This document shows, piece after piece, positions 26,363-51,081 of a DNA stretch of 64,000 bases. How positions within the stretch are numbered: the stretch's first letter is position 1; every line of letters begins with the position of its first letter. The stretch comes from Rhodobacterales bacterium (GTDB lineage: Bacteria; Pseudomonadota; Alphaproteobacteria; Rhodobacterales; Rhodobacteraceae). Made by a program: the position numbers and the translations under genes. The stretch is taken from NCBI GenBank assembly GCA_009993005.1, contig JAACUH010000057.1, forward strand, positions 1 through 64,000, read 5' to 3'. The notes below the pieces were generated by a model. It was not told the DNA's origin. It worked only from the letters and a program-made list of their open reading frames with translations, and did no database searches.

Positions 26363-27521
26363 GGATTGGGAAGAGGGCGGCTTTGGGCTCTACCTTCACT
26401 GGCCGTTCTGCCAGTCGAAATGCCCATATTGCGATTTCAACAGCCATGTCTCGGCCAATATCGATCAGGACCGCTGGGCGCAGGCCTATCTGGGAGAGAT
26501 TGACAGGATCGGTGCGCTGACGGCTGGCCGGGTGCTGCGCTCGGTCTTTTTCGGAGGCGGGACTCCGAGCCTGATGGAGCCGGCGCTTGTCGATGTGATC
26601 CTGCGCAAGGTGCGCGCCACCTGGGCCTGGGCGAATGACATTGAAATCACGCTCGAGGCCAATCCGACGTCGGTCGAGGCGGGGCGGTTTGCCGGATTTC
26701 GCGCGGCCGGTGTGAACCGGGTGTCGATGGGTGTGCAGGCGCTGAACGACGCCGACCTCAGGGCGCTCGGGCGGCGACACAGTCTGGCCGAGGCGCGCGC
26801 CGCGTTTGATGTCGCACGCGGTCTGTTCGATCGGGTGAGTTTCGACCTGATCTATGCACGACAGGACCAGACGCCGGCACAGTGGGAGCGCGAATTGCGT
26901 GAAGCGCTGGCGATGGCGGTCGATCACCTCTCGCTCTATCAATTGACGATCGAGGAGGGGACGGCCTTTGGTGACCGGTTTGCGGTGGGAAAGTTGCACG
27001 GGCTTCCCGATGAGGACCGCGCGGCCGATATGTATCTGCGCACGCAGGAGATCACCGCTGCGGCGGGGATGCCGGGCTATGAAGTCTCAAATCACGCCAA
27101 GCCGGGCCAGGAGAGCCGCCACAATCTGATCTATTGGCGCTATGGCGACTATGCCGGCATTGGTCCCGGGGCGCACGGGCGGCTCACGGTCGGCGGGCAG
27201 AGAATGGCGACCGAAGCGCACCGGGCGCCTGCGGCCTGGCTGGAACAGGTGGAGCAAGCGGGGCATGGCGAAAGCCTGCGGGAGCCGGTCGACGGGCAGG
27301 CCCAGCTCACCGAGATGGTCATGATGGGATTGCGGCTTCATGAGGGGATCGACCTCGCCAGACTGGGTCGTCTCGCAGACCGGTCTGGTCATGATATATA
27401 TAGCAATATCAATGGGCTACGCGATATCGGCATGGTTGACACCGATGGCGGCCGCCTGCGGCTGACTGAGCAGGGGCGGCCGGTGCTGAATGCGGTCTTG
27501 CGGAGGCTCTTGCCGGATTAA
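26355..27521 (+). CDS. hemW: Radical SAM haem chaperone HemW (coproporphyrinogen-oxidase-like)
   Basis: About 388 residues from a TTG at 26355 (LPEDWEEGGFGLYLHWPF); GGCGGG lies just upstream and the frame overlaps the rdgB end. An ATG at 26325 would add 10 residues. The radical-SAM cysteines are C19, C23 and C26 (CQSKCPYC), followed by FFGGGTPSL. Family members lack true coproporphyrinogen oxidase activity and instead hand haem to respiratory enzymes. Its placement after rph-rdgB is conserved in alphaproteobacteria. The last 130 bases contain an AT-rich patch (27392-27414). Convergent with parB, sharing TTAA at the stops. Confidence 0.93.
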   Translation: MPEDWEEGGFGLYLHWPFCQSKCPYCDFNSHVSANIDQDRWAQAYLGEIDRIGALTAGRVLRSVFFGGGTPSLMEPALVDVILRKVRATWAWANDIEITLEANPTSVEAGRFAGFRAAGVNRVSMGVQALNDADLRALGRRHSLAEARAAFDVARGLFDRVSFDLIYARQDQTPAQWERELREALAMAVDHLSLYQLTIEEGTAFGDRFAVGKLHGLPDEDRAADMYLRTQEITAAAGMPGYEVSNHAKPGQESRHNLIYWRYGDYAGIGPGAHGRLTVGGQRMATEAHRAPAAWLEQVEQAGHGESLREPVDGQAQLTEMVMMGLRLHEGIDLARLGRLADRSGHDIYSNINGLRDIGMVDTDGGRLRLTEQGRPVLNAVLRRLLPD

Positions 27522-28405
27522 TCGCCCGACAGGGCGCGCAGGAGATCGTCAAGCTGCGCGAGGTCCTTGTAGTGCAAGGTCAGGCGGCCACCTTCGGTGC
27601 CGGGAGTCTGGTCGATGCTGACCGACATGCCAAGCGTCGCGGCCAGTTCGCGTTCGATCTGGACGGTATCGGCATCCTTGGCCGCAACGGCGCGGCGCGG
27701 CGCAGCCTTCGGCGGCGCGTCTGTCGCCTTTCTGACCAGCGCCTCGGCGTCGCGAACCGACATGCCCCCCTGGATCATCCGGCGTGCCAGCTCTGAGGCG
27801 CGGGGGTGACCGACGAGGGTGCGGGCATGTCCGGCGGTCAGCCGACCCTGCACGAGGAAGGCCTGCACGTCGTCCGGAAGGGATAGCAGCCGCATCTGGT
27901 TGGCGATGTGACTGCGGCTTTTTCCAAGCGCGGCGGCAAGCTGTTCCTGGGTGTGACCGAAGCGGTCCATGAGCTGGCGATAGCCGGCGGCCTCGTCGAT
28001 GGCATTCAGATCAGCGCGCTGGATGTTCTCGATGATGGCGACCTCGAGAACCTCGGTATCGCTATAGTCGCGCACGATGACCGGGACATCGTGCAATTGG
28101 GCGAGCTGTGCCGCACGCCAGCGGCGTTCGCCGGCGACGATCTCGAACGCGCCGGCGTTTGTCGCGTCGGGGCGCACGATCAGCGGCTGGATGATGCCCT
28201 TTTCGCGGATCGAGGCCGCGAGCTCTGCGAGCGCGTCTTCGGCGAAGCTGCGGCGCGGCTGGTCGGGGTTGGGCCGCAAGTTCTCGATCGGGACGCGCTG
28301 ATCGGCCCGGCGGGGCCGATCCGGCGAGGACTCTGTCGTCACGTCTGCCATCAGCGCCGACAAACCACGACCCAAGCCTCTGTTTTTTATCTGTTTTTCA
28401 GTCAT
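27518..28405 (-). CDS. parB: Chromosome-partitioning protein ParB
   Basis: 295 residues. A CTPase clamp that binds parS and spreads to form the partition complex. The N-terminus has the ParA-stimulating basic segment (NRGLGRGLSALMAD). The conserved boxes follow: LRPNPDQPRRSF, then ENIQRADLNAIDEA, and the HTH around GKSRSHIANQMRLL. The GERRWRAAQLA CTP-binding motif (GxxRxxA) is intact. It follows parA by 30 bp on the same strand. Two perfect parS palindromes lie 1.4 and 3.3 kb upstream. Confidence 0.97.
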   Translation of the reverse strand: MTEKQIKNRGLGRGLSALMADVTTESSPDRPRRADQRVPIENLRPNPDQPRRSFAEDALAELAASIREKGIIQPLIVRPDATNAGAFEIVAGERRWRAAQLAQLHDVPVIVRDYSDTEVLEVAIIENIQRADLNAIDEAAGYRQLMDRFGHTQEQLAAALGKSRSHIANQMRLLSLPDDVQAFLVQGRLTAGHARTLVGHPRASELARRMIQGGMSVRDAEALVRKATDAPPKAAPRRAVAAKDADTVQIERELAATLGMSVSIDQTPGTEGGRLTLHYKDLAQLDDLLRALSGD

Positions 28406-28435: not shown

Positions 28436-29233
28436 TTAGCGCTCTCGTGACATCAGTTCTGTCGCAAGCGCCTTGTAAGCATCGCTTCCGGTCGAAGCGG
28501 GGTCATAATCGAGGACGGGCATCGCAAAGGACGGCGCCTCGCTCAGGCGGACATTGCGAGGAATGACCGTGCGAAAGACCATTTCGCCAAGAGTTTGCCT
28601 GGCATCGGCCTCGACCTGTTGTGAAAGATTGTTCCGCCTGTCCGACATCGTGATCACAACGCCTTCGATCCTGAGGCGTGGATTTGCGGTTTCGCGGACT
28701 TCGCGGACTGTGAGCATCAATTGTGACAGTCCCTCGAGCGCGAAAAACTCGCTCTGGAGCGGCACAACGACAGAATGCGCCGCAACCATCGCGTTGACGG
28801 TCAATATATTCAGCGAGGGTGGGCAATCTATCAATATGTAGTCGAGCGCGAAGGCCTCCATGGAAGGTTGGCGCAATGCATCGTGGAGAAGAAAGCTGCG
28901 TTTTTCATTCGCGATCAGCTCGATATCCGCGGAACTGAGGTCTGTTGTCGCCGGTACGATGCAGAGGTTTTCGACATTGGTGGACTGGATCGCATCGCTC
29001 GGCGTCGCATCGCCAAGCAGGAATTCGTAGGTCGTGACGGCCCGGTCGGCAGATGAAAGGCCGAGCCCGGTGGACGCATTTCCCTGCGGATCAAGATCAA
29101 CCAGCAGGACACGGCGATTGGACTTGGCCAACGCAGCGCCGAGATTGATCGCGGTCGTCGTCTTGCCAACGCCGCCTTTCTGGTTGGCAATGGCGATGAT
29201 TCTCGGGATTGCGAAAAGTGGGCTGTCAGACAC
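28436..29233 (-). CDS. parA: Chromosome-partitioning ATPase ParA
   Basis: 265 residues. Walker-type ATPase that binds nucleoid DNA and moves ParB-parS complexes. The deviant Walker A KGGVGKTT starts at K19, and DLDPQGNASTGLG and DYILIDCPPSLN follow. The frame overlaps the rsmG stop by 8 bp, so rsmG-parA-parB are probably cotranscribed, the classical gidAB-parAB arrangement near the origin. The DNA here is visibly AT-richer than in the flanking housekeeping genes. Confidence 0.97.
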   Translation of the reverse strand: MSDSPLFAIPRIIAIANQKGGVGKTTTAINLGAALAKSNRRVLLVDLDPQGNASTGLGLSSADRAVTTYEFLLGDATPSDAIQSTNVENLCIVPATTDLSSADIELIANEKRSFLLHDALRQPSMEAFALDYILIDCPPSLNILTVNAMVAAHSVVVPLQSEFFALEGLSQLMLTVREVRETANPRLRIEGVVITMSDRRNNLSQQVEADARQTLGEMVFRTVIPRNVRLSEAPSFAMPVLDYDPASTGSDAYKALATELMSRER

Positions 29234-29840
29234 GCGCTATACTTTCGACGCGCAGAATTGCTGCGTTTGCATTGGTGATACTGCGATTTTGGGTCAGTTC
29301 AAAGCGCCAATTGCGCCGGGCCAGAGCTATTTCTTCAGCCACCGTCTCACCTTTGGGGAGCAAGGCGATGCCGGTTGGCGAGAGATGACGCGCGGCGTAT
29401 CCCAGCAGGATGTCGAGCGGCGCGAGCGCCCGCGCGGACAGAACTTCGACGCCGAGTGGCGCGAGCGATTCGATACGTTTGGTCACTACTGTGACGCGGA
29501 GGCCAAAGATGCGGGATGCGGTTCGCAGAAAGGTCGCCTTGCGTTGATCGCTTTCGACAAGGACAAAGCGTGCATCGGGCCTGCGTTCCTTTCCCAGAAT
29601 CGCCACCACGATACCCGGGAACCCTCCGCCGCTGCCAAGGTCGGCCCAGAGGTTGAAATCTGGCGGAGCCAGCGGGAATAGCTGCGCCGAATCAACAATA
29701 TGACGGTCCCAGATTTCACTCCTGGATGCGGCAGAGATCAGGTTGACCCGGGGCGTCCAGTGCAACACAAGGTCCACGAAGGCACCCAGCACCTCTGCTG
29801 TTTCACGTGAAACATCCGCTCCGGGTATCACCTCCCTCAT
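29226..29840 (-). CDS. rsmG: 16S rRNA (guanine-527-N7)-methyltransferase
   Basis: 204 residues. Methylates G527 of 16S rRNA; loss gives low-level streptomycin resistance in other bacteria. The SAM loop [18 protein letters not shown] is intact, with RSRGFAPL-like catalytic region [13 protein letters not shown] perfect parS palindrome lies inside its 5' coding region and encodes DVSRET. Start overlaps the mnmG stop by 4 bp (ATGA). Confidence 0.96.
29799..29814. other. parS centromere site 1 (inside rsmG)
   Basis: TGTTTCACGTGAAACA is a perfect 16-bp palindrome identical to the bacterial consensus parS bound by ParB. It lies within the rsmG coding sequence and encodes its VSRET residues. parB is about 1.4 kb away on the left. 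Confidence 0.95.
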
Positions 29841-31723
29841 GCAGTCAGGCCACGAACCGTGTCTGACGTCTGCCGGACCCGCGCCGAGATGAGCAAAAGC
29901 GCAGAAGGGGTCATGCCATCGACCTGGGCCGCCTGCGCGATTGTCGCGGGCCTGATCGCTGTCAGTTTCTGCTTCAATTCGGTCGAAAGGCCGGGGATCG
30001 CCAGATAGTCCAGATCGACCGGGATGGCCTGCGCCTCATCTCGGCGCAGCGCCTCGACATCACGCGCCTGCCGGACAACATAATGCGCATAAAGAGCGTC
30101 GGATTTGATCTGCTCCTGAATCTCCGGCGGCACGTCTGCCAAGGACGGATCAAGGAGACACAGGTGATGAAAGCTGCTGTCGGAAAGCGCAAGGATCTCC
30201 AGACCACTGCGGCTTTCCTTGTCTGGATTCACGTTGATACCAAGCGCGGCGATGGCGCGCGCCGTGTGGCTTTGGTCCGCCAGCCGGCGCCTTACGTTGT
30301 CAAGCGCATCAACCTTGCGGCTGAAACTCGCCCAACGCCGGTCGCCGACACATCCGATGGCCCGGCCTGTCGGCGTCAACCGCTGGTCGGCGTTGTCGGC
30401 TCGCAAGGACAGGCGAAACTCGGCGCGCGACGTAAACATGCGGTAGGGCTCGCTCACGCCGCGCGTCACAAGATCATCAACCATCACGCCAATATAGGAC
30501 GTCGCCCGGCTGAAATGGACCGGCTCGTCCCCCGCGGCCAACCTTGCAGCGTTGAGCCCGGCGACAAGCCCCTGGGCGCCCGCCTCTTCGTAGCCTGTCG
30601 TTCCATTGATCTGGCCGGCCAGAAAAAGCCCCGGCAAGGCACGCACCCCCAATGCCGGTGTCAGCGCCCGGGGATCGACAAAGTCGTATTCGATCGCATA
30701 CCCGGGCTGGGTGATCACCGCCTTCTCCAAGCCTGCGATGGAATTCACATACGCCTCCTGCACATTGGCAGGCAAGGATGTCGAGATGCCGTTGGGATAG
30801 ACGATTGGATCATCAAGCCCCTCTGGCTCAAGGAAAATCTGGTGCGACGACTTGTCGGCAAATCGCACGACCTTGTCCTCGATCGACGGACAATACCGAG
30901 GACCAATGCCTTCGATATGGCCGCCGTACATGGCAGACAAACCGAGGTTTTCCCGAATGATCGCGTGGGTCTGCTCATTTGTATGCGTGATCCCGCAAGA
31001 AATCTGCCGCGCGACCGGACCTGTCGCGAGAAAGGAAAACAGCCTCGGATCATCATCCCCAGGCTGCATTTCAAGCTGGCCCCAGTCTATCGTACGGCCA
31101 TCCAACCGCGGCGGTGTGCCGGTCTTGAGCCGACCGAGGGGGAGGCCAAACGATTCGATCCGCTGTGCCATTTTGGTAGAGGGCAACTCGCCCACCCGCC
31201 CGCCGGGGGTCGATACGTCACCAATGTGAATGACACCGCGCAGAAATGTTCCTGTCGTCAACACGACAGCGCGCGCGGCTATTATGCACCCGTCGGCCAG
31301 AACGATCCCGGCGATCTTCCCGTTGCTCACTTGCAGATCCGCCGCCTCACCGGCCATGACCGTGAGTCCGGGCGTCTCGGCAATTTCTTGCTGCATCTTC
31401 TGCCGGTAGCGGGCACGATCCGCCTGGGCGCGCGGGCCCTGTACAGCGGGCCCCTTTTTCCTGTTCAGCAGGCGGAACTGTATCCCGGCATAATCCGCAA
31501 CGCGCCCCATGAGGCCATCCATCGCGTCGATCTCGCGTACCAGATGCCCTTTTCCCAGTCCGCCGATCGCGGGGTTGCACGACATCACACCAATTGTATC
31601 AGCGCGCAGCGTCACAAGCGCAGTGCGCGACCCCATGCGCGCTGCGGCATGCGCCGCCTCGCATCCGGCATGGCCGCCACCGACGACGACGACATCAAAA
31701 TCGCGATGTTTCACGTGAAACAC
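29837..31723 (-). CDS. mnmG: tRNA uridine-34 carboxymethylaminomethyl-modification enzyme MnmG
   Basis: 628 residues. FAD protein that works with MnmE to make cmnm5U (or related) at the tRNA wobble position. The FAD loop [20 protein letters not shown] follows the first residues. The [20 protein letters not shown] segment, a second Cys region and RPGYAIEYD-like [10 protein letters not shown] are typical. Its first codons, MFHVKH, are specified by the second parS palindrome. It begins 3 bp after the mnmE stop, so mnmE-mnmG-rsmG-parA-parB read as one unit. Confidence 0.97.
31707..31722. other. parS centromere site 2 (at the start of mnmG)
   Basis: A second perfect copy of TGTTTCACGTGAAACA. It overlaps the mnmG initiator region and encodes FHVKH at residues 2-6. 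The same arrangement is known from many alphaproteobacterial gidA genes. It is about 1.9 kb from site 1 and about 3.3 kb from the putative origin. Confidence 0.95.
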
Positions 31724-33040: not shown

Positions 33041-34363
33041 TCAGCTGTTCATCGAGTCAAAGAAATCGGAATTTGTCTTGGTCTGCCTGAGTTTTGACAG
33101 CAGAAACTCGATCGCATCCGTGGTCCCCATCGGGTTGAGGATCCGTCGCAAGACATAGGTTTTGGCCAGATCACCCTTGTCGACCAGCAATTCCTCCTTG
33201 CGCGTGCCCGACTTGAGGATGTCCATCGCGGGAAATACGCGCTTGTCAGCCACCTTGCGGTCAAGCACGATTTCCGAGTTCCCGGTCCCCTTGAACTCTT
33301 CGAAAATAACCTCATCCATCCGGCTGCCGGTATCGATCAGCGCTGTCGCGATGATGGTCAGCGACCCGCCCTCTTCGATGTTGCGCGCCGCGCCAAAGAA
33401 CCGCTTCGGTCGTTGCAGCGCATTTGCATCCACCCCACCGGTCAGAACCTTGCCCGAAGACGGCACCGTGGTGTTGAACGCCCGGCCAAGCCGCGTGATC
33501 GAATCAAGCAGGATGACAACATCCCGCTTGTGCTCCACCAGCCGTTTTGCCTTTTCGATCACCATTTCCGACACCGCAACATGCCGCGACGCGGGTTCGT
33601 CAAAGGTCGAAGAGATCACCTCGCCCTTCACCGACCGCTGCATGTCCGTGACTTCCTCGGGCCGCTCGTCGATCAGCAGCACGATCAGGTAACATTCCGG
33701 ATGGTTGGTCGCGATCGAATGGGCGATATTCTGCAAAAGCACCGTCTTGCCGGTCCGCGGCGGCGCCACGATCAGCCCGCGCTGACCTTTCCCGATAGGC
33801 GCAACAAGGTCGATGATCCGCGCCGAACGGTCCTTGAGAGTCGGGTCATTCTCGATCTCCATCTTCAGCCGCTCTTCGGGATAAAGCGGTGTCAGGTTGT
33901 CAAAGGCAACCTTGTGGCGCGCCTTCTCAGGCGACTCGAAATTGATCTGCTCGACACTGGTCAACGCAAAATAACGTTCATTGTCATTGGGTTCCTGCAT
34001 CACCCCTTCCACCGTATCACCGGTGCGCAGCGAATATTGCCGGATCATGTCAGGCGAGACATAGATGTCGTCCGGCCCCGGCAGATAATTCGCGGACGGC
34101 GAGCGCAAAAAGCCGAAACCGTCCTGCAGGACCTCCAGCACACCATCGCCGCCGATCACCCAATCCTCGTCCGCGCGCTCCTTGAGGATGGCGAACATCA
34201 TGTCACCCTTGCGCATGGTCGAGGCGTTCTCGATCTCCAGCTCTTCCGCCATGTCGAGCAGGTCTTTCGGGCTCTTCGCCTTCAGATCGGCCAGGTTGAG
34301 GCGATGAACCTGTTCACCATCGGTTTCACCATCGGTGTTGAGGACGGTATCAATTTGCGACAT
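33041..34363 (-). CDS. rho: Transcription termination factor Rho
   Basis: 440 residues. Hexameric RNA helicase that terminates transcripts. The N-terminal domain begins [20 protein letters not shown], and the RNA-binding cold-shock-like region includes [20 protein letters not shown]. Walker A is [12 protein letters not shown], with ERPEEVTDM and [13 protein letters not shown] further on. The start at 34363 ([13 protein letters not shown]) matches the family. A gene-free 148-bp leader separates it from the upstream hemJ stop. Confidence 0.97.
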
Positions 34364-34511
34364 GGGATTTCCTGCAAACAGCCAGACGCTGGCCATTCAT
34401 GCTTGACTATAGGGTGATGATCCTGTCCCGGACGGGCAGTGTTGCTTCCTTAGGCGCCCAAGCGTCCCGAGTCAATTCCGGCCGTCGCTCGACCCGATGT
34501 CGCCGCATCCC

Positions 34512-34961
34512 TCAGAACGGCCGCACCACCACCATCACGACAATCAGCAGCATCAGCAGCGTGGGCACCTCATTGGCAATACGATAGGTCCGCCCTGCCC
34601 GCGTGTTGCGCCCCTCGGCAAAATCCCGCCGCCGCGCCGCCAGCCAGCCATGCACCCCTGTCATGCCAATCACGCCAGCCAGCTTGATCCACGACCAGGC
34701 GGCAGACCAGTCGAACATGCCCATCGCGATCAGCAGCAGCCCAAACACCCAGGTCGAGACCATCGCCGGATTCATGATCAGCTTCAACAGCTTGCGCTCC
34801 ATCACCTGGAACGTCCGGTCAAGATCCGATCCCACCGCGGCCTGTTCGGCGTGATAGACATAGAGCCGCGGCAAATAGAACATCCCCGCCATCCAGGCGA
34901 TCAGCGACACGATATGACCCACCTTGAGCCAGGGATAAAGTTCCAACGGTATGACTGTCAT
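34512..34961 (-). CDS. hemJ: Protoporphyrinogen IX oxidase HemJ
   Basis: 149 residues with four membrane segments (VGHIVSLIAWMAGMFYLPRL, STWVFGLLLIAMGMFDW, WIKLAGVIGMTGVHGWLAA and LLMLLIVVMVVV). HemJ replaces HemY/HemG in many alphaproteobacteria and oxidises protoporphyrinogen IX; the conserved His near the N-terminus and the Lys/Arg-rich RRRDFAEGRNT loop are visible. A GGAAAGAAGAGG leader precedes the ATG. It is the last minus-strand gene before the putative replication origin; hemE, often found here in relatives, is absent. Confidence 0.9.
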   Translation of the reverse strand: MTVIPLELYPWLKVGHIVSLIAWMAGMFYLPRLYVYHAEQAAVGSDLDRTFQVMERKLLKLIMNPAMVSTWVFGLLLIAMGMFDWSAAWSWIKLAGVIGMTGVHGWLAARRRDFAEGRNTRAGRTYRIANEVPTLLMLLIVVMVVVRPF

Positions 34962-35033
34962 GTCCTGCCCTCTTCTTTCCTGCTCTTCCTAAATAGAATT
35001 AAGAAAATAGAAAGATGTTGATGATGTAGGGCC

Positions 35034-35042
35034 TCGGGATAA
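35034..35042 (-). other. DnaA-box-like 9-mer (two mismatches)
   Basis: TTATCCCGA on the minus strand, keeping the TTATCC core. Next to the left AT-rich tract of the putative origin. Confidence 0.4.
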
Positions 35043-35069
35043 CCCGCCATTCACGATTCACCCGCAGAG

Positions 35070-35078
35070 TTATCCTCA
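35070..35078 (+). other. DnaA-box-like 9-mer (one mismatch)
   Basis: TTATCCTCA differs from TTATCCACA only at position 7. Lies 11 bp after a GATTC site in the putative origin. Confidence 0.55.
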
Positions 35079-35210
35079 GTCCGACAGGCTGCATCCGCCT
35101 GGGCCCTGCTGGTCTGTCGTGATGCAAATATCTGGTTTTGAACAGTTTATTTCTGAACATCCGGTCAAGATTCCCCAGTTCGACCCCTTGACTCCCACCA
35201 AGCGGCAAAG

Positions 35211-35219
35211 TCATCCACA
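35211..35219 (+). other. DnaA-box-like 9-mer (one mismatch)
   Basis: TCATCCACA differs from TTATCCACA only at position 2. A further TTATCC core follows at 35228-35233 in the same orientation. Confidence 0.5.
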
Positions 35220-35356
35220 ACCGACAGTTATCCCGCTCCACAGTGTATGGCCGGACCCGAAGCCGCCCGTTTCTCCCCGTTTCATCCCCTCTACCATCGT
35301 CGCCCCGAAAACTGCACACTCTACGCACAGCGTTTCCCTCATGATTGCCCCCGGCC

Positions 35357-35365
35357 TTATCCACA
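35357..35365 (+). other. Perfect DnaA box at the maf start codon
   Basis: TTATCCACA matches the strong DnaA consensus exactly. Its last base is the A of the maf ATG, so DnaA bound here would cover the maf translation start and could affect its expression. Confidence 0.7.
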
Positions 35366-35964
35366 TGTCCCAGCCGATCATTCTCGCCTCTGCCTCTGCG
35401 GTCCGCGCCACGCTCCTGCGCAACGCCGGCGTGCCCTTCACGACCGACGTGGCCCGCATCGACGAGGATGCGGTGCGCGACGCCCTTATCGCCGAGGCCG
35501 CCAGCCCCCGCGACATCGCCGATGCCCTGGCCGAGATGAAATCCGCCCGCATCTCTGCCCGCAACCCCGGCGCGATGGTGATCGGCTGCGACCAGGTCCT
35601 GGCCTTCCGCGGCGCTCTGCTGTCCAAGCCGGTCTCGCCCGAACAGGCTCTCGACCAGTTGCGCGCCATGTCCGGCCAGACGCATCAGCTCCTCTCGGCC
35701 GTTGTCATCCACGGCGACGGAAAGCCGCTCTGGCGCCATGTCGGCACTGTCCGTCTGACCATGCACCAGATGTCCGACGACTGGCTTTGCGCCTATGTCA
35801 CCCGCAATTGGCCGTCGATCCGCGAGGCCGTCGGCGCCTACAAACTCGAAGAAGAAGGCGTGCGCCTGTTTTCGCGGGTCGAGGGCGACTATTTCACCGT
35901 CCTGGGCCTGCCCCTTCTCGAACTCTTGTCTTATCTGTCGCTTCGCGGAACATTGCCGTCATGA
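35365..35964 (+). CDS. maf: Maf/YhdE-family nucleotide pyrophosphatase
   Basis: 199 residues from the ATG at 35365 (MSQPIILASASAVRATLLRN), the family N-terminus with the SASxxR phosphate-binding motif. Conserved GCDQVLAFRG, LRAMSGQTHQLLSAV and YKLEEEGVRLFSRVEGDYFT follow. Maf proteins hydrolyse non-canonical or modified nucleoside triphosphates; the exact substrate class is not certain here. First plus-strand gene to the right of the putative origin. Its stop overlaps the aroE start (ATGA). An in-frame ATG at 35341 is a weaker alternative. Confidence 0.9.
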   Translation: MSQPIILASASAVRATLLRNAGVPFTTDVARIDEDAVRDALIAEAASPRDIADALAEMKSARISARNPGAMVIGCDQVLAFRGALLSKPVSPEQALDQLRAMSGQTHQLLSAVVIHGDGKPLWRHVGTVRLTMHQMSDDWLCAYVTRNWPSIREAVGAYKLEEEGVRLFSRVEGDYFTVLGLPLLELLSYLSLRGTLPS

Positions 35965-36794
35965 CCCAGCACGACATTCCCCTCGCCGGCGTGATCGGCA
36001 ACCCGATCGCGCATTCGCTCTCCCCGCGGCTGCACAAACACTGGCTGGGCCGCTACGGCCTCAAGGGCGACTATGTGCCCCTGCACGTCCACGAAGAGGA
36101 CCTGGAACAGGTCGTCCGCACCCTGCCGCGCATGGGATTTGTCGGCGTCAACATCACCATCCCGCACAAGGTCGCGATCCTTGACCTTGTCGATCACATC
36201 TCGGACCGCGCGATCCTGATCGGGGCCGCCAATACCCTGATCTTTCGCAAGGATGGCAAGATCCACGCCGACAATACCGACGGCTACGGCTTTGTCTCCA
36301 ACCTCAGGCAAGGCGCGCCCGACTGGCGTCCCGACGCCGGGCCTGCCGCTGTCCTGGGGGCCGGCGGCGCGGCCCGTGCCGTGATCTCGTCCCTGATCGA
36401 GGTCGGCTGCACCGAGATCCTTCTGTCCAACCGCACCCGCCAGAACGCAGAGGCGCTCAAACATGACTTCGGCTCCAAGGTGCATGTGGTGGATTGGGTG
36501 CAGGCCGGCAACATGATCGAAGAGGCGGCAACCGTGGTCAACACCACCTCGCTGGGCATGACCGGCGGCGCCGAATTCCGCGTTCCGCTCGACGGGTTGC
36601 GCCCCGGGACCGTGGTCACCGACCTGGTCTACAACCCCCTGCGCACCCGCCTCCTGCTGACGGCCGAGGCCGCCGGCTGCACCGTCGTCGATGGGCTGGG
36701 GATGCTGCTGCACCAGGCCGTCCCTGCCTTCGAGCGGTGGTTCGGCACGCGGCCCGCCGTCGATGAAGCAACCCGGGCCGCCGTGCTCGGATGA
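35961..36794 (+). CDS. aroE: Shikimate dehydrogenase (NADP+)
   Basis: 277 residues. Reduces 3-dehydroshikimate in aromatic amino-acid synthesis. The substrate site SHSLSP-like motif is IAHSLSPRLHKHWL, the catalytic Lys is in NITIPHKVAI, and NTDGYGF precedes the NADP loop VLGAGGAARAVISSL. Overlaps maf and coaE by 4 bp each, giving a tightly coupled maf-aroE-coaE-dnaQ operon. Confidence 0.96.
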   Translation: MTQHDIPLAGVIGNPIAHSLSPRLHKHWLGRYGLKGDYVPLHVHEEDLEQVVRTLPRMGFVGVNITIPHKVAILDLVDHISDRAILIGAANTLIFRKDGKIHADNTDGYGFVSNLRQGAPDWRPDAGPAAVLGAGGAARAVISSLIEVGCTEILLSNRTRQNAEALKHDFGSKVHVVDWVQAGNMIEEAATVVNTTSLGMTGGAEFRVPLDGLRPGTVVTDLVYNPLRTRLLLTAEAAGCTVVDGLGMLLHQAVPAFERWFGTRPAVDEATRAAVLG

Positions 36795-48133: not shown

Positions 48134-51081
48134 GCGGGGCCGCCCGGCATCGTCTCGGGCGCGACATCATCGCCCAGTTCCCATTCGCCAAAGCGGGAGA
48201 GATGGTCATAATCGCTTGTATCCGCATCCTTTTCCATGGTCATGCGGGCCGAATAACCGCGCGTGACAACCTGCCATTGCGCGATCAGGCTGCGCAATTC
48301 GTCCAGCACGCGCGCGGGCGGATGGTCGGCCAGCGGCGCCGGGACAACGGCTGGCGGCGCACCCAGTCCGATATAGGCCGCCTCTGCCACCGTCGCCGCG
48401 CCGATCGCGGGAAAGGCGCCCCGCGATACCATTGCCGCCTCGAGCAGCAGTTGCTTGTCGAACCGGGCCTGCTGCTTGCCGGTCGGCGGCTTGCCGGTCT
48501 TGTAATCGTAAAGGTTGACCACGCCTTCGGCGGCGATGTCGATCCGGTCGGCCTTGGCCGTCAGCGTGAAGCCGAGGTCGTCGAGCGGCAGCGCGCCGCG
48601 GATTTCGAGGTGCCGGGGCACGCCCAGCGCCTGCCGCCCGACCTCGTCGCGCAGGAAATCATCGGCCACCTTGTCGATCCGCGCGAGCCAGATCCGCTGC
48701 ACGGTCGGCCAGGGGCAGCGGGCCTCCAGAACCTCGGCCGCGGTCGCGATCAACGCGGCGCGGGTGCCGGCTGCGTCCGGCGGCAGGCGCAGGTCGATGA
48801 ACCGCTCGAACACCTCGTGCAGCACCGTCCCCCGCAACAGCGCGTCGGGCGTCTGGCTGAGCGGGTCAAGCGGGCGCAGCCCGAGGATGTATTCGGCATA
48901 GATCGCATAGGGGTCGCGGATCAACGTCTTGATCCGGGTGACAGAGAGGGTCTTCGGGCGATGATCGGGATGCGGGCGTGGTGACGGGCGTTTGGCCTTG
49001 TCAGTGACTGTTTGAGGCGCCGAAAGCGCCGCAGCGCGCGCAGCCCATCCCTGCCCGCGCTCACGCATCGCGGCAAGCGCGGCCTTGCCGCCCGTATCCT
49101 CCAGCCCGCCCAACAGATTGCAGAGCCGGTTGATCCAGCGCGACGGCACGGTCTGCGCCTCGTCGCCCCGCACGGCGCGCGTGATCCAGACTTCGGCACC
49201 GGCCACGGCCTGCATGTAGTCATGCGCGGACAGCCCGATCCGCCGTTCCGGCAGCAACAACCCCGCCTGCGCCCGCATGGTCCGGTTCAGCCAGGGGTCG
49301 GCGGCGGGCGCCTCCGGCCAAACGCCCTCGTTCATCCCGCCGAGGATGATGAGGTCAGCCCCCTGCACCCGCGCCTCGAGCGTTCCGCGAAACAGGACCT
49401 GCGGATGGCCGGTGTCGCGGTCGCGCACCTCGGCCCCGGCCAGCACCGCACCGAACAGCGCGGCATAATCCGTCGCCGACAGGGGGCCGCCGGCATCGGC
49501 ATGCAGCACCAGCGTGTCGCAGACCTGTTTTGCGACACGCCCGGCCGCCTCGTCCCACAGGCCGCCTCGTCCTTCGGGGCCGTCGGACAGTCGCTCCGCC
49601 AGCGCGAGATGCGCCGTCACATGATCGCAGAGCGGCCTGACCGGCGTCGGATCGAGATCGCAGAGCGTTGTGGCCAGCCATCCGGCCCAGTCAATGCGGC
49701 CCCGGTCGGCCCCGGCCGTCTTTTCCGCCCAGCGCACAAAGGTGTCAGCGACGGGAAAGGGCGGCCCGTTGCGACGCAGGTGCAGTTCAAGCTCGCGCGT
49801 CCGCAGCAGGTGCAACCCGCGGTCGGCGCCGCCATGCACGAGCGGGTGTTTGAGCAGCGCCAGCAGCGCGGTCGCGGTCAGCGGCCGGCCAAAGAGGTCG
49901 GCCACCTGCCGCAAGAGCCGCCCGGGTGGGGAAAGCGGCAGCGGCAGGCCGGCGCTGTCATCGGGCGTGATGTTCCAGCGGTCGAGCGCGGCCGCAACCT
50001 GCCGGGTCAGCATCCGGTCAGGCGTGATGAGCGCGGCGGTCCGTCCCTCGTCCACGGCGTGCCGCAGGCGCAACGCGATCGTTTCCGCCTCGGCGCGCGG
50101 CGAGACCGCCTCGAGCAGCGTCAGGTCGCGCGTCGCCAGATCGAGGTCGCGCAGGCCCGGCCCTTCGGTGCGCCATTGATCGGTGACAGGCGCAGGACGC
50201 AGCGACAGCGACACCAGCCGGTTGCGCGCCGCATTGGGTGGCGCGGCCGTGTCCCAGGGCCGGACATCGCCGGCCTTCAGGCCCAGCGCCTGCATGATCC
50301 GGCGAAAGCGGTATTGCGGATGGTCCTCGGCCGTCAGCACGCTGTCGAGCCGGTCCCACACCGCCTGTGGCATGTCAAAGTCGAACCCGGGCAGGATCAC
50401 CGCGCCTTGCGGCAGCCGCGCGACAGCCTGCATGAACAGCGCGGTGGTGCCGCGCGACCCGGTCGATCCCGCGACGATGACAGGATCCGACGGCGGGTTG
50501 GCCAGCCAGTTTGCAGCCAGCCGTTCGACCACGAGACGCTGCCGGGCCTCTTGGTCGGGCGGCTCTGACGGATTGTCGAAATAGCGGCGCACGATGTCGA
50601 AAAACCGTTGCGCCCGTGCCCAGTGGCCCGACAGGTCGGTCACGTCGAGCTGCGCGATGGTCTCGGGCGGCACACCTTCGCCCTGCATTTCGGCCATCAG
50701 CCGTGCCAGGCTCTCTGACAGGTCGAAAAGGGCCGCGCGCGGGGCGAGGTCGGGCTCGCGGTCCAGCAATTGCGCGACAAGCTGCGACAGCTCGAGCTTG
50801 CGGCGCAGCGGCGCGACAGGGGGCGGGATATCCGCCGAAACCGGGTCAAAGGCGAGGTCCGTGACAAGGCGGATGCGCGGCAGGAGGCGCGGCGGCCCGG
50901 CATCGAACAACGCGCGCATCCGGCGCTGCATCCGGCGCGTGTTGACATAAAGCGTGACCCGCGCGAGCGCCTCGGGGCCGATGCCGCCTGTCAGACGGTC
51001 AAGGCCCGCGATCACCCGATCGGCAAAATCCACACCCGGCGGCAGGCCAAACAGACGCGGACCGTCGCTGTCAGGAAACAT
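48130..51081 (-). CDS. addB: Double-strand break repair protein AddB
   Basis: 983 residues. Partner of AddA with an inactivated helicase-like N-terminal part and a C-terminal RecB-like nuclease (NLYDYKTGKPPTGKQQ). The PD-(D/E)XK region and the segment TRIKTLIRDPYAIYAEYILG are typical of alphaproteobacterial AddB. No iron-sulfur Cys cluster like that of Bacillus AddB is evident. Overlaps the murU-like gene by 11 bp and addA by 4 bp. Confidence 0.93.
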   Translation of the reverse strand: MFPDSDGPRLFGLPPGVDFADRVIAGLDRLTGGIGPEALARVTLYVNTRRMQRRMRALFDAGPPRLLPRIRLVTDLAFDPVSADIPPPVAPLRRKLELSQLVAQLLDREPDLAPRAALFDLSESLARLMAEMQGEGVPPETIAQLDVTDLSGHWARAQRFFDIVRRYFDNPSEPPDQEARQRLVVERLAANWLANPPSDPVIVAGSTGSRGTTALFMQAVARLPQGAVILPGFDFDMPQAVWDRLDSVLTAEDHPQYRFRRIMQALGLKAGDVRPWDTAAPPNAARNRLVSLSLRPAPVTDQWRTEGPGLRDLDLATRDLTLLEAVSPRAEAETIALRLRHAVDEGRTAALITPDRMLTRQVAAALDRWNITPDDSAGLPLPLSPPGRLLRQVADLFGRPLTATALLALLKHPLVHGGADRGLHLLRTRELELHLRRNGPPFPVADTFVRWAEKTAGADRGRIDWAGWLATTLCDLDPTPVRPLCDHVTAHLALAERLSDGPEGRGGLWDEAAGRVAKQVCDTLVLHADAGGPLSATDYAALFGAVLAGAEVRDRDTGHPQVLFRGTLEARVQGADLIILGGMNEGVWPEAPAADPWLNRTMRAQAGLLLPERRIGLSAHDYMQAVAGAEVWITRAVRGDEAQTVPSRWINRLCNLLGGLEDTGGKAALAAMRERGQGWAARAAALSAPQTVTDKAKRPSPRPHPDHRPKTLSVTRIKTLIRDPYAIYAEYILGLRPLDPLSQTPDALLRGTVLHEVFERFIDLRLPPDAAGTRAALIATAAEVLEARCPWPTVQRIWLARIDKVADDFLRDEVGRQALGVPRHLEIRGALPLDDLGFTLTAKADRIDIAAEGVVNLYDYKTGKPPTGKQQARFDKQLLLEAAMVSRGAFPAIGAATVAEAAYIGLGAPPAVVPAPLADHPPARVLDELRSLIAQWQVVTRGYSARMTMEKDADTSDYDHLSRFGEWELGDDVAPETMPGGPA

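Follow-up and report, generated by a model that had tools for sequence, protein, structure and literature searches.

Whether the short intergenic gap between hemJ and maf holds the chromosomal replication origin (oriC) is the question raised by this locus. The window, that is, the whole 64,000-nt stretch analysed here, belongs to a contig of 92,068 bp in a genome of 3.40 Mb that is split into 196 contigs. Neighbouring genes were named with NCBIfam models, all scoring over the curated cut-off except parA. To the left of the gap, parB (27518 to 28405, TIGR00180), parA (28436 to 29233), rsmG, mnmG, mnmE, rho (33041 to 34396, TIGR00767) and hemJ (34512 to 34961, TIGR00701) run leftward on the minus strand; to the right, maf (35365 to 35964), aroE, coaE and dnaQ run rightward on the plus strand and are followed by a leftward secB. 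The divergence of seven left-hand and four right-hand genes noticed in an earlier sequence-only reading of this DNA was confirmed. The maf-like nucleotide pyrophosphatase gene was assigned by TIGR00172, barely above cut-off, with NF002690 below its cut-off. Two parS sites and parAB had also been placed near the gap. Two copies of the palindrome TGTTTCACGTGAAACA, parS-type by its consensus, were found at 29799 to 29814 and 31707 to 31722, i.e. 5.6 and 3.7 kb to the left of maf, and parB was found as well; the parA assignment is the softer part of this claim, its ParA/MinD-type family matches lying below the curated cut-offs. The gap proper spans 34962 to 35364 (403 bp), since a DnaA box at 35357 to 35365 shares its final A with the maf start codon (ATG, first base 35365).

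We consider this gap to be very probably oriC (probability about 93%), because of its conserved position, the clustering of DnaA boxes, an element found once per genome and the proximity of parAB and parS, and because it agrees with a published family-wide location. The origin proposed by the sequence-only reading is thus well supported, and the origin of an unfinished genome would be placed. Directly established are the conserved sequence anatomy, the position and the uniqueness. The location itself is ordinary. According to excerpts of PMC4793288, the placement of oriC next to maf is a conserved feature of Rhodobacteraceae as judged from DoriC, with Ketogulonicigenium vulgare Hbe602 as the strain described, so that the location was already known in print. 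The K. vulgare origin belongs to the same family and shares the maf flank, the DnaA boxes and the intergenic setting; the excerpts give the maf neighbourhood only and not the element described below. Origins were also mapped by Ori-Finder in 101 Rhodobacteraceae, with parAB proximity as a criterion, and the available part of that text (PMC6699656) does not contain the word "maf"; eight strains without a placeable oriC showed, according to the same part, no box enrichment or composition differences. What is mildly new is the repeat detail within the gap.

All DnaA boxes listed by the sequence-only reading are present. The perfect box TTATCCACA (35357 to 35365, plus strand) overlaps the maf start codon. 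Two further plus-strand boxes carry one mismatch each: TTATCCTCA (35070 to 35078), whose first two T are invariant in 20 aligned gaps (the window and 19 relatives), and TCATCCACA (35211 to 35219). A TTATCC-core box follows at 35228 to 35236 (plus strand), with four of its six core bases invariant in the same 20 gaps, and TTATCCCGA, with two mismatches, lies on the minus strand at 35034 to 35042. The A/T contents of 80% at 34991 to 35020 and 70% at 35121 to 35160 were likewise reproduced, and the 30-mer richest in A/T across the whole window begins at 34990. An AT-rich region lies beside a box cluster beyond chance, next to maf and near parAB. The Poisson probability of three boxes with at most one mismatch in 404 bp is about 2.4e-6 for any one such interval and about 0.02 genome-wide. 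Elsewhere in the genome, boxes of this quality numbered 18 in 296 kb sampled, never two within 400 bp, against a background that is raised because part of the sample was picked for carrying a perfect box. The gap holds the densest box cluster of the contig. The perfect 9-mer occurs six times in 3.40 Mb, and a reversed-pattern control 11 times.

The gap was compared across 110 maf-bearing loci, 30 from relatives (40 of 41 genomes matched; our own copy is included) and the best 80 of 483 from a wider collection of genome contigs. hemJ, and not the hemE named by the sequence-only reading as the usual origin neighbour in some relatives, was the flanking gene opposite maf in 93 of these, with both genes around a gap of less than 1.2 kb (91 distinct; 24 labelled Ruegeria); 15 loci were without a hemJ match inside the locus and in two hemJ was too distant from maf. 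The rows of this 93-gap comparison are related and not independent. Gap length is narrowly distributed (median 404 bp, 5 to 95% range 366 to 417). Boxes with no more than one mismatch number 244 in the 93 gaps, as opposed to 9.7 expected by mononucleotide shuffling; one gap has no such box, nine have one, 41 have two, 22 have three, 15 have four, three have five and two have six. In the 78 gaps from the wider collection, boxes are 32 times as dense as in the remainder of those loci (200 in 31 kb of gap versus 187 in 945 kb outside). The boxes recur at preferred places: 71 of 93 loci have one on the maf start codon, with a perfect match in 24, and 41, 35 and 42 of 93 have one around positions −190, −296 and −322, respectively. 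The first of these ends on the start-codon A, and its recurrence suggests that maf might be under DnaA control as well.

The longest conserved block of the gap, overlooked by the sequence-only reading, is an element at 34988 to 35042 on the minus strand, which is the hemJ-coding strand. It was delineated by alignments and by the sequence model R1 described below and resembles an unwinding element. Read from 35042 down to about 34990, it consists of the box TTATCCCGA, a GGCC spacer, a trio-like repeat (35014 to 35029) made of one CTA followed by the units CAT, CAT, CAA and CAT and a closing C, i.e. CTAC and four CAW units (W = A/T), and finally an AT-rich, G-free pyrimidine tract (34990 to 35013), the likely melting region, whose strand is nearly G-free across the 93 gaps. 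Two shorter stretches are also conserved in the alignments, one at the TTATCC core (35228) and one at the box on the maf start. The motif CAWCAWC was found on the element strand of the last 140 nt in 72 of 93 gaps, compared to one on the opposite strand, eight in the rest of the gap and 3.4 after shuffling; when extended by TT, the corresponding figures for the 93 gaps are 65, 0, 2 and 0.48. In 59 of these 72 gaps, a co-oriented box (two mismatches or fewer) is found within 45 nt upstream of the repeat, compared to 5.4 with shuffled sequences. The spacing between box and repeat is 22 to 23 nt in 34 of the 59 boxed gaps, and the 7 nt of the window represents a minority arrangement; the window seems to be without the more distant box. 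Tandem-looking boxes were seen by eye in three loci (L007, L106 and L110). As the repeat itself served to align the rows, the information peak seen there is overstated; MAFFT alignments gave the same conserved columns, one of them with rows cut around a similar anchor.

The uniqueness of the element was assessed with R1, a sequence-only model from 40 relatives, with the window left out of its training. In our genome R1 gave a single match, at 34988 to 35039 (model positions 16 to 67 of 70, E 1.1e-7), and no second one even with the limit relaxed to E 10 (150 of 182 first-look candidates were scored). Among 41 relatives, 22 had a match at E ≤ 0.1, 18 of them within Rhodobacteraceae and four among the 16 genomes outside. 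The 13 matches at E ≤ 4e-5 were all in Rhodobacteraceae, one per genome; the four genomes from other families gave two to eight weak matches each, and in one member of the Rhodobacteraceae (G011) the match, at E 0.075, lies on a contig other than that of maf. A larger search with strict filters and 25 candidates scored per genome, covering 199 Rhodobacteraceae genomes and including those of training loci (e.g. G005, apparently that of training locus L089), returned exactly one match at E ≤ 0.001 in 113 genomes and none in 86, so that R1 provides a model that locates the origin element on the maf side in these 113 genomes. Where the place of maf was listed, the match was upstream of maf and on the opposite strand in 104 of 104 cases, at 266 to 1148 bp (median 317); for two of the 104 the place of maf was taken from the maf search in the 41 relatives, and nine of the 113 matches have no maf place among those listed. 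One match per genome at a conserved position, as is used to recognize a bacterial oriC, was observed both in our genome and in 113 of 199 genomes, the 86 genomes with no match speaking against the origin reading. In 12 of the 199, no maf match was obtained at E ≤ 1e-30.

DnaA also acts as a transcription factor, and the gap could be no more than a divergent promoter region of hemJ and maf in which the boxes serve transcriptional control. In its favour, the element occupies the stretch from 27 to 78 nt ahead of the hemJ start, and the perfect box sits on the maf start codon. The element, however, does not follow the genes in the manner of a promoter. It is kept between aroE (identified by eye) and hemJ in a genome without a maf ortholog (G023, contig C18, locus L185; best maf match E 4.5e-14), and it stays with hemJ about 1.1 kb away from maf in G001 and, weakly (E 0.012), in G015. 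Of five loci that have rho and no hemJ beside maf, four retain it, clearly in L010 (E 6e-13) and L091 (E 1.6e-6) and weakly in L012 (E 2e-4) and L016 (E 1e-3), whereas none was found in L026 at E ≤ 1. In addition, 78 of the 93 gaps carry two to four boxes with at most one mismatch at recurring places, and the element is single-copy where found. No sigma-70-like consensus promoter was detected in 34900 to 35420, which says little because only 0.3 would be expected by chance; no consensus terminator was found either (0.2 expected), nor any Rfam RNA in 34000 to 36500 at gathering score. We regard a pure promoter function as very improbable. It is at least as hard to believe, and we would rate it a shade lower, that the true origin lies elsewhere, for instance near dnaA or at a skew minimum around 49.7 kb, and that the gap is a DnaA-titrating cluster. 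This possibility draws on GC skew, for which the sequence-only reading had asked for a minimum at the locus. Such a switch was seen in four of seven relatives and not in the other three. Whole chromosomes were sampled for G003, G013 and G009 and flanking stretches only for G069, G130, G146 and G063 (for G152, one side only). In G003 and G013 the skew turns from negative to positive at the maf locus and back about half a chromosome away, the cumulative minimum within the surrounding 100 kb being 1.9 and 17.9 kb from maf, respectively; some stretches of the right arm of G003 have near-zero skew. G069 and G130 show the same turn in the nearest stretches, with a far right stretch of −0.021 in G069. 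The skew of G063 and G146 has no turn at the locus, and that of G009 turns 100 to 170 kb to the left of the maf/R1 locus (G009:C3, 2.74 to 2.91 Mb, L216 to L247), a displacement that an inversion beside the origin might explain. Our own contig shows no turn at the locus; its skew is close to zero to the left and to the right, with a local minimum at 49,737, 14.4 kb to the right. Against an origin elsewhere stand the densest box cluster of the contig and the only R1 match of the genome, both in the gap, and the turn of G003 at maf and not at dnaA, which is located 80 kb away at the contig start. Moreover, mean absolute skew in 20-kb stretches is weaker in our genome (0.034) than in G003 (0.044) and G013 (0.049). 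We read this picture as one of weak and locally rearranged skew; it is nevertheless the main evidence that does not fit oriC. In our contig, the sign of the skew is opposite to that expected over some 20 kb to either side of the origin (15000 to 55000 of the window).

Taking the gap as oriC, DnaA would bind the dispersed boxes and the minus-strand box at 35034 to 35042, and would polymerise from the latter over the adjacent CTAC and CAW repeat, holding one strand single-stranded. The pyrimidine/AT tract at 34990 to 35013 would then be opened and the helicase loaded there; forks would leave both ways along the co-directional genes, and segregation of the duplicated origins would fall to ParB bound at the two parS sites close by. 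Opening of the trio type at the CAW repeat is likely. The same oriC could be opened as in E. coli, where AT-rich single-stranded DNA is recruited to the DnaA complex, with no trio-type element involved. We find this the less convincing mechanism, though one with a substantial chance of being right. It would be consistent with TTTATT- or TTATT-like stretches in the AT tract of several relatives, with a repeat that differs from the canonical trio, and with an IHF consensus in 12 of 93 gaps (2.0 expected by mononucleotide shuffling); in the window's gap, no exact match to the IHF consensus was found. The repeat, however, lies within the longest conserved block of the gap and is preceded by a co-oriented box far more often than in shuffled sequences, a layout typical of basal unwinding.

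As described in excerpts of PMC6669920, PMC8287927 and PMC10721633, the B. subtilis basal unwinding system shares with our element the co-oriented box or boxes, a short spacer, a triplet repeat and an AT-rich tract into which the repeat leads. It differs in three respects. The triplet here is 3'-GTW-5', written CAW along the box strand, instead of the canonical trio 3'-GAT-5', and CTACTA was found on the box strand in three of 93 gaps, as compared to 64 for CATCAT; the commonest spacing in the relatives, 22 to 23 nt, is not the 7 nt of the window; and DnaA carries Tyr or Phe where B. subtilis has Asn187. The orientation of the trio strand was taken from a C. difficile example in PMC7561715, together with the B. 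subtilis arrangement. A shifted register, 3'-TAG-5', restores the A in the CAT units and not in the CAA units. A rule simplified from the excerpt of PMC8287927, namely a DnaA box carrying no more than two mismatches, with three or more trios 3'-NAN-5' no farther than 16 bp from it, does not fit the main box at 35034 to 35042 and was rejected for it; mechanically, it is passed from a weak two-mismatch box, TCATCAACA (35016 to 35024), which overlaps the repeat. The rule discriminates little, since it is easily satisfied in T-rich DNA (88 of 93 gaps have a run of at least three close to the repeat). Among the literature matches listed on alphaproteobacterial DnaA-trios or Rhodobacter oriC and maf, none described the CAW repeat, which is no proof of absence.

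In the canonical trio, according to the passages of PMC10721633 used here, the adenine is contacted by Asn187 of B. subtilis DnaA, and changing the trio-centre A to T impairs origin opening. Our genome's DnaA (contig C186, L003:961-2304, minus strand) was aligned with PDB chain 8btg, which we infer to be B. subtilis DnaA from the residue numbers in those passages. With positions counted by hand, Tyr183 stands for Asn187, Lys198 for Arg202, Glu224 for Glu228 and Lys218 for Lys222. The survey was extended to the best-scoring and least divergent 30 of 40 genomes with a DnaA match. The Asn187 position is occupied by Tyr in 28 and by Phe in two of these proteins (23 from Rhodobacteraceae, seven from other alphaproteobacterial families), so that the adenine contact is changed in all of those examined, whereas the guanine-contact Lys and Glu are invariant. 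Tyr at this position was first taken as special to Rhodobacteraceae, an idea that was rejected, as it also occurs in the seven DnaA of other families. We hypothesize that an altered trio code accompanies the altered adenine contact. In Rhodobacteraceae, and perhaps across the Alphaproteobacteria, oriC might be opened with a variant trio 3'-GTW-5', with T in place of the captured adenine, matched by a DnaA that has Tyr or Phe at Asn187 and keeps the guanine contacts (Lys for Arg202, Glu for Glu228). This is a speculative proposal, and we hold it to be rather unlikely as it stands. If true, it would mean that initiator and origin code have changed together in a lineage-specific way. Should the repeat be a variant trio, it would offer a direct test of DnaA reading single-stranded origin DNA outside B. 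subtilis. The two genomes with Phe, G004 and G015, had no R1 match at E ≤ 0.1, though the maf locus of G015 matches weakly. A search of viral contigs with DnaA gave 66 loci, the matches listed being in the C-terminal part of the protein, and was set aside.

Finally, the gap can be compared to Cori of Caulobacter crescentus, located between hemE and COG1806 according to an excerpt of PMC1914354. Both origins are alphaproteobacterial and have DnaA boxes, an AT-rich region and an adjoining heme-synthesis gene. The flanks here are hemJ and maf, and the window's gap is without an exact CtrA site (TTAA-N7-TTAA) or IHF site. The CtrA motif occurs in eight of 93 gaps, with 1.7 expected by mononucleotide shuffling. 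The three GANTC sites counted by the sequence-only reading among the origin hallmarks are present (35055, 35169 and 35190) but were rejected as an origin feature, their frequency across the 93 gaps being at chance level (136 seen, 139.4 expected). One of them overlaps a −35-like TTGACTC at 35188 to 35194, in the window and in some aligned relatives, and a CcrM-sensitive maf promoter is possible at this place.
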